From an uncultured Woeseiaceae bacterium (GTDB lineage: Bacteria > Pseudomonadota > Gammaproteobacteria > Steroidobacterales > Woeseiaceae), in assembly GCA_947259285.1 (NCBI GenBank), contig CAMYMR010000001.1:41310-105309 (forward strand): DNA of 64,000 nucleotides, given 5' to 3'. This document shows positions 14,423 through 60,138 of the stretch, piece after piece (the first letter of the stretch is position 1; each line of letters opens with the position of its first letter). The notes below the pieces were generated by a model. It was not told the origin of the DNA, did no database searches, and saw only the letters and a list, made by a program, of their open reading frames with translations. A program made the position numbers and the translations under genes.

Positions 14423-15163
14423 GTGACCTTGAATCAGACAAGTTTGCCGAAACACGTCGCCGTCATCATGGATGGCAACGGTCGCTGGGCGAAAGCGCGG
14501 CAAAAGCCCCGTCGAGCTGGTCACCGGGCAGGCGTGAAGGCGGTCCGCGCAACGGTGGAGGAAGCCGCGAAGCAGGGCGTCGAAGTCTTGACGCTGTTTG
14601 CTTTCAGCAGTGAGAACTGGGCGCGGCCCGAGGAAGAGGTGCATAGCCTCATGGCCCTTTTTCTCGAGGCATTGCGACGAGAAGTGGACGAACTGCATCG
14701 TAATAATGTGCGACTGCGCGTTATCGGTGCCAGGGAGCTGCTGAATCCCGGCCTCGTCAAAAAATTTGGTGATGCCGAAGAAAAGACCGCCAACAACACA
14801 GGCCTGTTGTTGAACGTCGCGGTCGCTTACGGAGGGCGCTGGGATATTCTCGTGGCAACAAAGCGCATCGCGCGGAAAGTTGCGGACGGTGAGATCGAGG
14901 TGGACGACATCGACGAAGCACGACTGGCAGCGGAGATGCAGCTCGCGGACTGCCCGGAACCGGATCTCTTGATACGTACCGGCGGCGAACAGCGCATCAG
15001 CAATTTCCTGCTCTGGAATATTGCCTATGCGGAACTCTGGTTCACGGACGTCCTCTGGCCAGATTTTGACGCCGGCGAATTCCACAAGGCCCTGCAGTAC
15101 TTTGCCGAGAAGCAGCGCCGCTTCGGTCAGACCGGCGAACAGCTGGCGGCGGCAGAATGTTAA
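14423..15163 (+). CDS. uppS: Undecaprenyl diphosphate synthase
   Basis: KHVAVIMDGNGRWAKARQKPRRAGHRAGVKAVR; LLIRTGGEQRISNFLLWNIAYAELWFTDVLWPDF. Confidence 0.96.
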   Translation: MTLNQTSLPKHVAVIMDGNGRWAKARQKPRRAGHRAGVKAVRATVEEAAKQGVEVLTLFAFSSENWARPEEEVHSLMALFLEALRREVDELHRNNVRLRVIGARELLNPGLVKKFGDAEEKTANNTGLLLNVAVAYGGRWDILVATKRIARKVADGEIEVDDIDEARLAAEMQLADCPEPDLLIRTGGEQRISNFLLWNIAYAELWFTDVLWPDFDAGEFHKALQYFAEKQRRFGQTGEQLAAAEC

Positions 15164-15942
15164 AGACACGCATCATAACGTCCGTCATAGCGCTGCTCGC
15201 GCTGGGCGTCATTTTGTTCGTCGTTCCTGGCTACGCAGCCGAGCTTATTATTACGGTGCTCGTGATTGCAGGGGCCTGGGAGTGGTCGGGTTTCCTCGGC
15301 GTGCCGGGGTCGGCGTTTCGCGGTGTTTTCGTCGCGGTTATTGGCGGACTGATGGCCGCGTCCTACCTGCTGCTGCCACAGATTTCCGCCCTCATCCTGC
15401 AAATCGCATTCGGCTGGTGGTTCATCGCCTTCGTCTGGGCACTGTTCTTCCCGACGCCGATTCCTACGGTCGTACGCTGGACTGTCGGCGTGCTGGTCCT
15501 GGTGCCGATGTACGTCGCACTGATTAGTCTGTATCGGACCGGGCCCGAAATCCTGCTGTTCGCCCTACTGATTGTCTGGGCCGCAGACGCGGGCGCCTAT
15601 TTTGCGGGCAAACAGTTTGGGCGCGTGAAGCTGGCGCCGAGCATCAGTCCCGGAAAGACCTGGGAGGGCGTTTTTGGCGGGCTGCTGGTCGTTGCACTGC
15701 TGGCGGCAGCTACCGCGCGCTGGACCGGTAACGATCTCGCGGTGTTGCTGCCGTTTTGCCTGGCCGTTGCCGTCTTGTCTATTGTCGGCGACCTCACGGT
15801 GAGTATGTTCAAGCGCACGGCCGGCGTGAAAGACAGCGGTACGATGTTCCCGGGCCACGGCGGCGTCCTCGATCGTGTGGACAGCGTCGCCGCGGCGGCG
15901 CCGCTGTTCGCGCTCGGATTGGGCTGGCTGGGACTCGTTTAA
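15157..15942 (+). CDS. cdsA: Phosphatidate cytidylyltransferase
   Basis: Multi-TM; ISPGKTWEGVFGG, SMFKRTAGVKDSGTMFPGHGGVLDRVDS; overlaps uppS. Confidence 0.95.
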   Translation: MLKTRIITSVIALLALGVILFVVPGYAAELIITVLVIAGAWEWSGFLGVPGSAFRGVFVAVIGGLMAASYLLLPQISALILQIAFGWWFIAFVWALFFPTPIPTVVRWTVGVLVLVPMYVALISLYRTGPEILLFALLIVWAADAGAYFAGKQFGRVKLAPSISPGKTWEGVFGGLLVVALLAAATARWTGNDLAVLLPFCLAVAVLSIVGDLTVSMFKRTAGVKDSGTMFPGHGGVLDRVDSVAAAAPLFALGLGWLGLV

Positions 15943-16107
15943 TGGGATATTCATCGTGCATTCATCGTGATTCGGTTAGCGTGTCGAATCGACCGGGCGG
16001 AACTGACGCGCGCCGTGTCAGTCACATAGCACAGGGCGACCGGAGTACGACAGACGGCACGCGCCAACACCACAAGTACATGTTTAACTTCGGAATTATG
16101 ACTCTAG

Positions 16108-17460
16108 ATGGATAGCGCAATCATTAGTATCCTGGCTTTCATTGCCGCGATCAGCATTCTGGTCGCCGTGCACGAATATGGCCATTATATTGTTGGTCGC
16201 TGGACCGGAATGAAGGTGCTTCGGTTTTCCATCGGCTTTGGCTCGCCAATCTGGTCTCGTACGTCAGGCAAGGATCAGACCGAATACTGCATCTCGGCCA
16301 TTCCACTCGGCGGATACGTGCGCTTCCTGGATAGCCGTGATGGCCCGGTCGACCCGGAAGACGAAGGTCGCGCATTCAATCATCGACCGATTCCGGCGCG
16401 CATCGCTGTGCTGCTGGCCGGACCTGGTTTCAATTTTGTTTTTGCGGTGATCGCCTACTGGCTATTACTGGCCGGCGGGGTCATGGCACTGAAGCCGGCT
16501 ATAGGAGATGTAACGCCGGGATCCTATGCAGATGAGGCCGGCCTCAATTTCGGCGACAAGATCGTTGCCGTCGGCGATATCGAGGCAACGGAATGGGAAA
16601 CGACGCTTGTTGAGATCCTTAACAACCTCGTCGCCGATGGCCGCGTGCCGATGACGCTGGAGAATGAGCAGGGACGGCAACGTTCGGTCGTCCTCGACGT
16701 TGGCGATGATCGCACGCGTTTAACCGAGCCCGGACTGCTTTTCGACGGCCTGGGTTTCGAGGTCTGGCAGCCGCCGGCCGAGATCGGCACACTGTCGCCG
16801 GGCGGCGCGGCAGAAACAGCGGGGCTCAGGGTGGGTGACCGCATACATGCCGTAAACGGGGAGCGCATCCGGACGTTCAACGACCTGATCGCCGTGTTGG
16901 CGCCGCTCGCCAGGCAGCGGGTGACGTTGGAATACGTCCGTGGCGGCCAGCTGGCCAGTATGGATCTTACGCTCGACGAGCATGAGGTCGACGGAGAGAA
17001 GCGCGGCCTGTTGGGCATCAGCCTGCCTCAAACGTCGTCCGATTATTACTATCGTCAGACTTTCACCCCGATGCAGTCGCTTCTGGCCGCCGTCAACAAG
17101 ACCTGGGACACGAGCGTCTTTACGGTAAGCATGCTCGGCCGCATGATTACCGGTGACGTTTCGATCAAGAACATCAGTGGACCCATCAATATCGGCCAGA
17201 TTGCCGGCGAGTCCGCACAGCGGGGTGTGAAGTATTTCCTGGGTTTTCTGGCCGTCGTCAGTATCAGCCTTGGCATCCTCAATTTATTGCCGATACCCGT
17301 TCTCGATGGTGGCCAGATCGTCTATCAGGTCGTGGAGATGATAAAGGGCAGCCCGATGACCGAACGCGCACAAATGCTCGGGCAACAGGTCGGTATTTTC
17401 GCGTTAATCTTGCTAATGAGCTACGCGTTTTACAATGACATATCGAGAATCCTGAGTTAG
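16108..17460 (+). CDS. rseP: RIP metalloprotease RseP
   Basis: VAVHEYGHYIVGRWTGMKVLRFSIGFG (HExxH), tandem PDZ domains, NLLPIPVLDGGQIVY. Confidence 0.95.
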   Translation: MDSAIISILAFIAAISILVAVHEYGHYIVGRWTGMKVLRFSIGFGSPIWSRTSGKDQTEYCISAIPLGGYVRFLDSRDGPVDPEDEGRAFNHRPIPARIAVLLAGPGFNFVFAVIAYWLLLAGGVMALKPAIGDVTPGSYADEAGLNFGDKIVAVGDIEATEWETTLVEILNNLVADGRVPMTLENEQGRQRSVVLDVGDDRTRLTEPGLLFDGLGFEVWQPPAEIGTLSPGGAAETAGLRVGDRIHAVNGERIRTFNDLIAVLAPLARQRVTLEYVRGGQLASMDLTLDEHEVDGEKRGLLGISLPQTSSDYYYRQTFTPMQSLLAAVNKTWDTSVFTVSMLGRMITGDVSIKNISGPINIGQIAGESAQRGVKYFLGFLAVVSISLGILNLLPIPVLDGGQIVYQVVEMIKGSPMTERAQMLGQQVGIFALILLMSYAFYNDISRILS

Positions 17461-29940: not shown

Positions 29941-33868
<3,928 letters not shown>

Positions 33869-33902: not shown

Positions 33903-34199
33903 TTGTTTCGTACACGCCTGTTACTGGCCGTGCTCGCTGTTGCCGGGCTGGGTCTTCAAGCCGAGCTCTGGTTCTCGGACGAGGGTTATCGAAAAACGCT
34001 GAACCTGCGCGACGCGGTTGCCGAGCAGCGCGCGCTCAATGACTCATTGCGCAATCGAAACGCGGCGCTCGATGCCGAGGTGGTCAATCTGAAGCAAGGA
34101 CGAGACGCGGCAGAAGAGCGCGCGCGAACCGATCTTGGCATGATTGGCCGGAAGGAAACTTTCTACCAGGTCGTGCCGGTCGCTGACAACGATCCTTAA
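33903..34199 (+). CDS. ftsB: Cell division protein FtsB
   Basis: Short single-TM coiled-coil: LRNRNAALDAEVVNLKQGRDAAEERARTDLGMIGRKETFYQVV; directly after eno. Confidence 0.92.
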   Translation: MFRTRLLLAVLAVAGLGLQAELWFSDEGYRKTLNLRDAVAEQRALNDSLRNRNAALDAEVVNLKQGRDAAEERARTDLGMIGRKETFYQVVPVADNDP

Positions 34200-34208
34200 G
34201 GGCAGCCG

Positions 34209-35198
34209 GTGTCCCTGCCAGATTGGGCCCGAGCGCACGGACCCGCGCTATTTACCGCCGTTATACGAAGCGAACCCTCTGAGTTTGACGTGACCGAGGA
34301 ACTCGGTTTCGAATTCAGCGCTGACGGCGAGCATGACTACCTTTTCATTGAAAAGACCAACGCCAATACCGAGTGGGTTTCGAGACAGCTGGCCCGGTTC
34401 GCCAACGTTTCGCAGCGTGATGTCGGCTACGCGGGCCTGAAAGACCGGCGTGCCGTAACGCGACAGTGGTTCAGCGTCCCGCGATGGCACTCACCGGACT
34501 GGCGGCGGCTCGAGGCCGTCGGGGTCCGCCTGCTTGAGGTCCAACGACATGACCGAAAGCTGAGACGGGGCGCCCATCGAGGCAATCGCTTTCGCATCGT
34601 TTTGCGCGGTGCGCCACCGCCAGCCGACGACCTGGACGAGCGCCTGAAGACCCTCCTCGATCACGGAGTACCGAACTATTTCGGCGAGCAGCGATTCGGT
34701 CGAGGCGGCGGCAACCTGGCCCTGGCGGACGACTGGTCACGTGGCAAAGGGTTGACTCGCCACAAGAGAGGGCTGGCGATCTCCACCGTGCGTTCCTTTC
34801 TTTTCAATGAGTTTCTCGATGCGCGTGTCCGCGCAGGAAGCTGGAATACGCTCATCGATGGGGACGTGGCGAATCTCGACGGATCCCGCAGCGTATTCCC
34901 GGTCCATGCGGTGGACGAAGACTTGCTGAGTCGCTGCGAGCAAATGGACCTGCATCCTGCTGGACCGCTATACGGCGACGGCTCGCCGACGGGCGGGGTT
35001 GCTGTGGGGCATGAAGGCTGGCTGGATGCGCTCTCACGAGCTCGCATCAAACCGGCGAACAGGAGTTTGCGACTGCGCGTCAACGACCTCGAATGGGCGG
35101 TCCAGGGCGACGCGATCGTCCTCGAATTCGCCCTTCGCCGCGGTACGTTTGCTACCGCTGTGCTGCGCGAGGTCGCCCAGGTCTCCGGCAGGAGTTAG
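34209..35198 (+). CDS. truD: tRNA pseudouridine(13) synthase TruD
   Basis: EFDVTEELGFEFSADGEHDYLFIEKTNANTEWVSRQLARFANVSQRDVGYAGLKDRRAVTRQWFSV. Confidence 0.97.
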   Translation: MSLPDWARAHGPALFTAVIRSEPSEFDVTEELGFEFSADGEHDYLFIEKTNANTEWVSRQLARFANVSQRDVGYAGLKDRRAVTRQWFSVPRWHSPDWRRLEAVGVRLLEVQRHDRKLRRGAHRGNRFRIVLRGAPPPADDLDERLKTLLDHGVPNYFGEQRFGRGGGNLALADDWSRGKGLTRHKRGLAISTVRSFLFNEFLDARVRAGSWNTLIDGDVANLDGSRSVFPVHAVDEDLLSRCEQMDLHPAGPLYGDGSPTGGVAVGHEGWLDALSRARIKPANRSLRLRVNDLEWAVQGDAIVLEFALRRGTFATAVLREVAQVSGRS

Positions 35199-35814: not shown

Positions 35815-36084
35815 CTAGCAGCCTGTTGAAAAAGTATTTGGAGGCTCAGTTAAATGCTCAGCACTGCGATCAAGGCGCGTCTCGACGTACAGGTTGGGCA
35901 CCTTTACAAGAGGCGCAACGCAGGGCGCAGTGCTGAGCATTTAACCCGCAGGGCGCGCCAGAGAAGGGGTTCGACTTTGTTGCGCGCTTTGCGAAGGGTC
36001 CCGCCCTGCGCGGCATCGCGCGCCGCGCCGAACCCCTTCTCTGAGCGCGCTGAGCCCCTAACTACTTCTTCAACAGGCTGCTAG
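35815..36084. mobile_element. MITE-like non-autonomous element with TIRs and nested palindromes
   Basis: 22-bp terminal inverted repeats CTAGCAGCCTGTTGAAAAAGTA / TACTTCTTCAACAGGCTGCTAG (1 mismatch); internal perfect 20-bp inverted repeat (35849-35868 / 35926-35945) and 14-bp inverted repeat (35960-35973 / 36029-36042); no plausible protein. Confidence 0.8.
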
Positions 36085-58646: not shown

Positions 58647-59405
58647 ATGACAGTCCCGCGGCGTGTGCAGCAGCAGCCGGCCTACATACTGCATCGTCGG
58701 CCGTTTCGTGATTCCAGTCAGATTCTCGATATTGTTACGCGCGACTACGGAAAAATCGCGCTTGTCGCGCGCGGTAGTCGCAGCTCGAAATCGCGTCTCG
58801 CCGGCATCCTGCGACCGTTCTTGCCGCTCAGTATGTCGTGGGTCGCTCGCAGCGACCTGGGGACACTGACCGGCGCCGAGGCGGCGGGAGTGCCCAGGGG
58901 GATTCGCGGTGACGCGATGCTCTCTGCGTTTTACGTCAATGAGCTGCTATTGAACTTTCTGCACCGCCATGACCCGCAACCGGAAATATACTCACTCTAC
59001 GACGAAGTCATTGGCGCATTAGCATCCGCTGCCGACGTCGCCGCCTGTCTGCGGTCGTTTGAAATGGAGTTTCTGGGACTGCTGGGGTACGCGGTCAGCT
59101 TTCATGACGATTCGAGGCAGGACAGGGCGCTGGACCCTGATCGCTACTATAGCTACCGCGTCGAACAGGGGCCGGTTGCCGTCGAGCGTCGCGAAGGGCC
59201 GATGCTATTCTCCGGGGCAGTGCTGCTGGCGATTCAGGCACAGGAATTCGACAAGCCGGAGATCCTGCGTGCCGCCAGTCGCTTGTTGCGCGAAATCATC
59301 AACTATCACCTCGGCGGGAAAGAACTCAAGAGTCGCAAGGTGCTGATCGAGTTGCATCGCGGTAGAATCGCCGAGACAAATCAGCGTGGCGGCGAAAGTG
59401 ACTGA
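58647..59405 (+). CDS. recO: DNA repair protein RecO
   Basis: [38 protein letters not shown]. Confidence 0.95.
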
Positions 59406-60138
59406 ATCGAATCCAATCTTGCTCGGGGTCAATATTGACCACGTTGCGACCCTGCGGCAGGCACGCGGCACGCGTTACCCGGAACCGGCCGAGGCGGCCC
59501 GCATCGCGGAGGAGGCGGGCGCCGATAGCATCACGATTCATTTGCGCGAGGACCGTCGCCACATTCAGGACATCGACCTCGAGGACATCAAAGCGGTGAT
59601 GCGCACGCACATGAATCTCGAATTGGCGGTTACCGACGAGATGATCGATATCGCCGCGAGATTTCGGCCAACCGACTGTTGCCTCGTCCCTGAAAAGCGC
59701 CAGGAACTGACGACCGAGGGCGGGCTGGACGTCGCGGGACAGCTGAGCAAGGTACGAGCGGCCTGTGAGCGCCTGACGGATGCTGGTATCCGGGTGTCAC
59801 TGTTCATCGATCCCGTTCGGGAACAGCTGGATGCCGCCGCGTCCGTTGGCGCGCCGGTCGTCGAGCTGCATACCGGACAGTATGCGGAGGCCGGGGGCGA
59901 CGAACAGCTGGCCGAGCTTCAACGCATCGAGGACGCGGCCCGCTATGGCCGCAGTCGTGGCCTCGTCATCAATGCGGGTCACGGCCTGCACTATCAAAAC
60001 GTCTCGGCCATAGCGCGCATCGGGGAGATCGTCGAGCTGAATATAGGCCATTCGATCATTTCGCGTGCCGTGTTTGACGGTCTGGCGGCGGCCGTCTCTG
60101 AAATGAAACACCGGATGGTAGAGGCGCGAAACGGATGA
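59386..60138 (+). CDS. pdxJ: Pyridoxine 5'-phosphate synthase
   Basis: [53 protein letters not shown]; alternative GTG at 59398. Confidence 0.97.

Follow-up and report, generated by a model that had tools for sequence, protein, structure and literature searches.

Proposed replacement of the MEP pathway by a mevalonate gene cluster with an HMG-CoA reductase::mevalonate kinase fusion in Woeseiaceae

Introduction

The mevalonate route is the isoprenoid route of animals and archaea, and the MEP pathway is the usual bacterial one. Across 4,249 species, the MEP pathway is found in 82.9%, the mevalonate pathway in 12.0%, and both in 2.4% (PMC13001223). Coxiella burnetii and Legionella are Gammaproteobacteria that use mevalonate and lack the MEP pathway (PMC9803151, PMC9997736), and in Legionella PmvK has been reported missing (PMC13001223). 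Fusions of isoprenoid enzymes are also known, IspDF being a common one (PMC13001223). In marine sediments, Woeseiales reportedly account for 1–22% of 16S sequences (PMC7082342). Neither isoprenoids nor mevalonate are mentioned in the Woeseiaceae genome papers PMC12175321 and PMC7082342. Here we describe a 64,000-nucleotide stretch of a Woeseiaceae genome, called the window throughout, that lies at positions 41310-105309 of contig C1 in a bin of 3.2 Mb and 166 contigs with 84.8% completeness (genome G000; genomes, contigs, loci and families carry our own labels).

Empty ispD-ispF and dxr slots

The order ftsB-ispD-ispF-truD is present in outgroup gammaproteobacteria, in keeping with the initial annotation, which had described eno-ftsB-ispD-ispF-truD as a conserved gammaproteobacterial order and pointed out that in the window ftsB stops at 34199 and truD starts at 34209, 9 bp apart and without ispD or ispF. 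Our coordinates and gene calls agree with it, and eno, ftsB and truD are consecutive and all on the + strand (Table 1). The same annotation had found dxr missing as well, about 18 kb away, and the gap between cdsA and rseP is indeed just 165 bp with no dxr remnant in it; the corresponding gap in G303, a genome of the same order, is about 1.2 kb and contains a 434-aa dxr frame. The window retains uppS, and IPP is therefore still consumed by the cell. Searches with tblastn, using queries from an MEP-bearing relative of the same order, found no remnant of ispD, ispF or dxr in the window (best E values of 0.02 for dxr, lying inside eno, 0.26 for ispF and 1.1 for ispD), and they revealed neither a deletion scar nor a pseudogene. 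In 28 further Woeseiaceae loci that were measured, ftsB and truD are likewise adjacent and 4–21 bp apart; the spacing widens to about 40–48 bp in G006 and G009, which are more distant members of the family. A separate feature of this region is an element of about 270 bp between smr and surE (35815-36084), MITE-type in look. It is bounded by 35-nt terminal inverted repeats (89%) and contains two further inverted repeats that are perfect; its end sequence has no second copy in the window and is absent from the 126 loci examined.

Table 1. Features of the window around the two empty slots, and pdxJ.
Feature	Position	Strand	Evidence or remark
kdsA-type DAHP synthetase family gene, conserved neighbour	31728..32585	+	Pfam DAHP_synth_1 232 bits
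eno (enolase), conserved neighbour	32588..33868	+	Pfam Enolase_C 429 bits
ftsB, left flank of ispD-ispF slot	33903..34199	+	Pfam DivIC 67.2 bits
empty ispD-ispF slot (9-bp ftsB-truD junction)	34200..34208	.	occupied by ispD-ispF in G303 and G075, two genomes from this order
truD, right flank of ispD-ispF slot	34209..35198	+	Pfam TruD 197 bits
uppS, undecaprenyl diphosphate synthase	14423..15163	+	Pfam Prenyltransf 281 bits
cdsA, left flank of dxr slot	15157..15942	+	Pfam CTP_transf_1 175 bits
empty dxr slot (cdsA-rseP gap)	15943..16107	.	165-bp gap; G303 counterpart about 1.2 kb
rseP, right flank of dxr slot	16108..17460	+	Pfam Peptidase_M50 229 bits
pdxJ, pyridoxine 5'-phosphate synthase	59386..60138	+	Pfam PdxJ 335 bits; DXP consumer in a family without dxs

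The history of truD was followed separately. In a scan of named genomes, the closest relatives of the TruD of the window are mostly Woeseiaceae bins, at 58–68% identity. Horizontal replacement of truD as the cause of the junction was rejected, as the Woeseiaceae genes form their own clade against other gammaproteobacteria. Because copies from Halieaceae nest inside this clade (in a tree with rough bootstrap), the gene is probably native to Woeseiaceae, and Halieaceae probably received theirs from this family. The Halieaceae copies (L043-L049, L052 and L057) stand without eno, ftsB or surE as neighbours.

Absence of MEP genes across the family

IspF is present in 305 of the 370 genomes of a class-wide draw and in none of the 61 genomes of the family, 37 of which are of high quality. 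Neither DXR nor IspH exceeds the cut-off in any of 25 Woeseiaceae, including the single-contig 4.06-Mb genome G006, and the same 25 lack a true DXS over the cut-off, the best matches being partial in every case and reaching at most 173 bits. Five MEP-bearing comparison genomes (G075, G303, G096, G270 and G402) give 150–164 bits for DXR, 320–336 for IspH and 882–920 for DXS. When the IspD model was run on the window genome, its single match proved to be GlmU (494 bits to glmU) and not IspD. The loss of the MEP pathway is thus family-wide and not peculiar to the window genome; individual bins may be incomplete, yet the 37 high-quality genomes and the single-contig genome agree. Ordinary rearrangement, by which ispD-ispF and dxr would have moved elsewhere in a cell whose MEP pathway still works, might be entertained from one bin of 84.8% completeness, where a single absence is weak evidence, but it is scarcely credible given that IspF is missing in 37 high-quality genomes and DXR, IspH and DXS in 25, one of them closed, while the same searches yield 150–920 bits in MEP-bearing relatives, and it is refuted for these four enzymes at the search sensitivity used. 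The pathway-level loss proposed in the initial annotation has therefore held up: its ispD and ispF were sought elsewhere, with IspF found in 0/61 genomes and the IspD-model match of the window genome falling to GlmU; the MEP-bearing relatives G303 and G075 do not share the arrangement, as they hold ispD-ispF between ftsB and truD; and a mevalonate cluster stands in the place of the pathway.

The mevalonate cluster and its fused enzyme

HMG-CoA reductase (HMGR) is found in 58 of the 61 family genomes and in 37/37 of high quality (class-wide, 71/370). The genes for diphosphomevalonate decarboxylase (mvaD), a PMK-like GHMP kinase and hmgR::mvk are clustered in 13/13 Woeseiaceae loci, joined by idi1 in 11 and hmgS in 12. 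Their layout has dinB-ispA divergent from mvaD, the PMK-like kinase, hmgR::mvk and idi1, and hmgS convergent. ispA and dinB lie beside the cluster in nearly all Woeseiaceae loci; G004 is without a dinB match, and the cluster of G009 shows no match to ispA or idi1. In the window genome (84.8% complete) a contig end falls inside mvk, and idi1 and hmgS are not seen there. Four of the enzymes, MvaD, HMGR, MVK and IDI1, match NCBIfam models over the cut-off. These include mevalonate kinase (TIGR00549, 230–238 bits against a cut-off of 163, in G006 and G009), diphosphomevalonate decarboxylase (TIGR01240, 238–245 against 171) and type-1 IPP isomerase (TIGR02150, 154 against 106). A type-2 IPP isomerase was considered and rejected, being absent in the search. 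The putative HMG-CoA synthase is homologous to TIGR01835 at 150–158 bits, below its cut-off of 360, and adjoins the cluster in those 12 loci.

The HMGR domain matches TIGR00532 at 361–379 bits, a model that NCBIfam names 'degradative', which would suit a cell that lost its MEP genes, scavenges isoprenoid precursors from outside and uses HMGR in catabolism rather than biosynthesis. We hold this to be very improbable, since the gene is fused to MVK and clustered with MvaD, the PMK-like kinase, IDI1, HMGS and ispA, a biosynthetic context, and since the degradation of mevalonate would have no need of MVK, MvaD or IDI1. A second HMGR, unfused and of the NADPH type (TIGR00533, below the cut-off), is encoded next to a gene for wax-ester synthase in the window genome (L067 9635-10807, G000:C31), and several other Woeseiaceae also have a second HMGR.

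With one exception, every complete case has HMGR and MVK in a single open frame of 714–762 aa, in Woeseiaceae as well as in families f3, f103, f146 and f38. The exception is G007, where the chain reaches 937 aa with an added IDI1 domain; this ORF (L088, G007:C61) is a triple fusion of HMG-CoA reductase, mevalonate kinase and type-1 IPP isomerase. The E/K/D/H catalytic motifs in the HMGR part and the GHMP motifs in the MVK part are present in every complete fusion, and we take the four E/K/D/H positions to be the class II HMGR catalytic residues. The Woeseiaceae fusions make up one clade (100/100) in the fusion tree, which does not settle the place of f3. G270 and G402 also have long HMGR frames, which are not HMGR::MVK fusions. 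This enzyme architecture looks new, with no earlier report in the literature searched, from which subscription papers were mostly absent, and HMGR::MVK suggests itself as a candidate for use in pathway engineering.

The remaining kinase of the cluster is more divergent. It scores 73–81 bits with TIGR01220, below the cut-off of 165.7, and in a profile search its best solved match is 3k17 (Listeria Lin0012; E 2.7e-42), followed by mammalian and other mevalonate kinases and the PMK of S. pneumoniae. The predicted model (pLDDT 90.5) superposes on 3k17 with a TM of 0.82 and on 3gon, the S. pneumoniae PMK with phosphomevalonate, with a TM of 0.75–0.77 at 3.6 A, and an invariant GAGGGD motif agrees with GSGGGD of 3k17. 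Judging from sequence and model, phosphomevalonate kinase is most likely its role. One may speculate that a similarly divergent kinase could explain the PmvK reported missing in Legionella.

Relatives and timing of the loss

Family f2 of the same order (G303 and G075) retains kdsA-eno-ftsB-ispD-ispF-truD-smr-surE-pcm, and genome search finds DXR in both genomes. Both slots are empty in f3 (G379), another family of this order, and in the Woeseiaceae genome G006, and the ispDF slot is empty in G009. Outside the order, ispDF is likewise gone from the ftsB-truD slot in f146 (G212 and G306), and f38 (G096) has both pathways with the ispDF slot still filled. The locus L097 (G096:C4) belongs to this gammaproteobacterium, which carries dxs, dxr, ispD, ispF and ispH plus an HMGR::MVK mevalonate cluster. 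In a tree of KdsA, Eno, SurE, Pcm and FtsB, Woeseiaceae and f3 form one clade (99/97) with the MEP-bearing f2 outside it, and the alternative pairing of f2 and f3 fails the AU test (p 0.013). Because the tree joins Woeseiaceae with f3 and leaves f2 outside, one MEP loss in their common ancestor, with an independent loss in f146, is the simplest account. The order thus contains both MEP-bearing and MEP-less families, and G096, with mevalonate plus MEP pathways, offers a further comparison from outside the order for complete pathway replacement.

PdxJ retained without DXS

In the known DXP-dependent pathway of vitamin B6, DXP is made by DXS (PMC9997740). The PdxJ of the window aligns over its full length to E. 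coli PdxJ (1m5w/1ho1, 313 bits), and PdxJ is found in 25/25 Woeseiaceae at 321–350 bits, with 338–348 in MEP-bearing relatives. An intact pdxJ kept without DXS looks new. As PdxJ needs DXP while DXS is missing, we infer a small DXS-independent supply of DXP for vitamin B6. ThiG, the other consumer of DXP, is present in f103 and f146 and missing from Woeseiaceae, f2 and f3; among the genomes of f103 and f146, DXS occurs in G266 (f103) alone. No gene for a DXP source lies beside pdxJ, whose neighbours are recO, acpS, an exonuclease and a tRNA/rRNA uracil-methyltransferase-like gene.

One candidate for the source is a divergent or split DXS-like transketolase that serves PdxJ from below the DXS cut-off. 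Separate C-terminal DXS-like subunits do exist in G051, G033 and G018 (154–173 bits, 306–363 aa), and for no MEP enzyme other than Dxs has an isolated absence been reported in candidate species (PMC10663253), but such subunits occur in 3 of the 25 genomes and the rest give weaker partial matches, mostly to transketolase-sized frames (about 680–750 aa) or short E1-beta-like frames, which makes this source unlikely. A side activity of pyruvate dehydrogenase (PDH), RibB or another enzyme, yielding a trace of DXP enough for B6 and not for isoprenoids, is by analogy a real possibility, if somewhat short of an even chance: point mutations in aceE or ribB rescue dxs mutants of E. coli, and PDH makes 1-deoxyxylulose that XylB then phosphorylates (PMC3424233). 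Since ThiG is absent, the demand for DXP in Woeseiaceae would be small; against this, the mevalonate-only families f103 and f146 also retain ThiG. Tentatively, and with more doubt than confidence, we suggest that in Woeseiaceae and the mevalonate-only families f3, f103 and f146 a non-DXS enzyme makes DXP for B6, and in f103 and f146 for thiamine as well, having taken over when dxs disappeared together with the MEP pathway, or having been adequate by then. The combination of pdxJ with a missing dxs makes the origin of this DXP a concrete and testable question. The three C-terminal DXS-like subunits (306–363 aa; loci L120, L121 and L122) adjoin ORFs of similar size, a possible split transketolase.

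Proposed replacement and comparison with known systems

In our preferred reading, to which we assign a probability of about 0.93, the whole MEP pathway was lost in the ancestor of Woeseiaceae and f3, IPP is made instead by the classical mevalonate pathway, and DXP for PdxJ comes from the small DXS-independent supply. The mevalonate genes would have been present first, an order that, like the enzyme activities, we infer, and would have made dxs, dxr, ispD, ispF and ispH dispensable, whereupon these were presumably deleted and their operons closed up; the 9-bp ftsB-truD junction would be one trace of this whole-pathway loss. HMG-CoA synthase would feed the HMGR::MVK fusion, on which mevalonate may be formed and phosphorylated on one polypeptide, after which the divergent PMK-like kinase and MvaD would act in turn, type-1 IPP isomerase would provide DMAPP, and the products would supply ispA and uppS.

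The replacement in Woeseiaceae is a new instance of a kind already known from Coxiella and Legionella, which likewise belong to the Gammaproteobacteria, lack MEP and depend on mevalonate genes. Those are intracellular pathogens, whereas Woeseiaceae are abundant bacteria of marine sediments, and unlike theirs the HMGR of Woeseiaceae is fused to mevalonate kinase. A PMK-like gene is also present, in contrast to Legionella with its reportedly missing PmvK (PMC13001223). Compared with the mvaK1-mvaD-mvaK2 and mvaE/mvaS genes of Gram-positive cocci, Woeseiaceae probably have the same enzyme set and the same three-GHMP logic, and the solved structure nearest to their PMK-like kinase is that of Listeria Lin0012 (3k17); the cocci use a type-2 IPP isomerase, whereas that of Woeseiaceae is of type 1. 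In Enterococcus MvaE, HMGR is fused to thiolase, and its partner in Woeseiaceae is mevalonate kinase. Like IspDF, HMGR::MVK places two isoprenoid enzymes on one chain, and unlike IspDF it unites consecutive steps of the mevalonate pathway.
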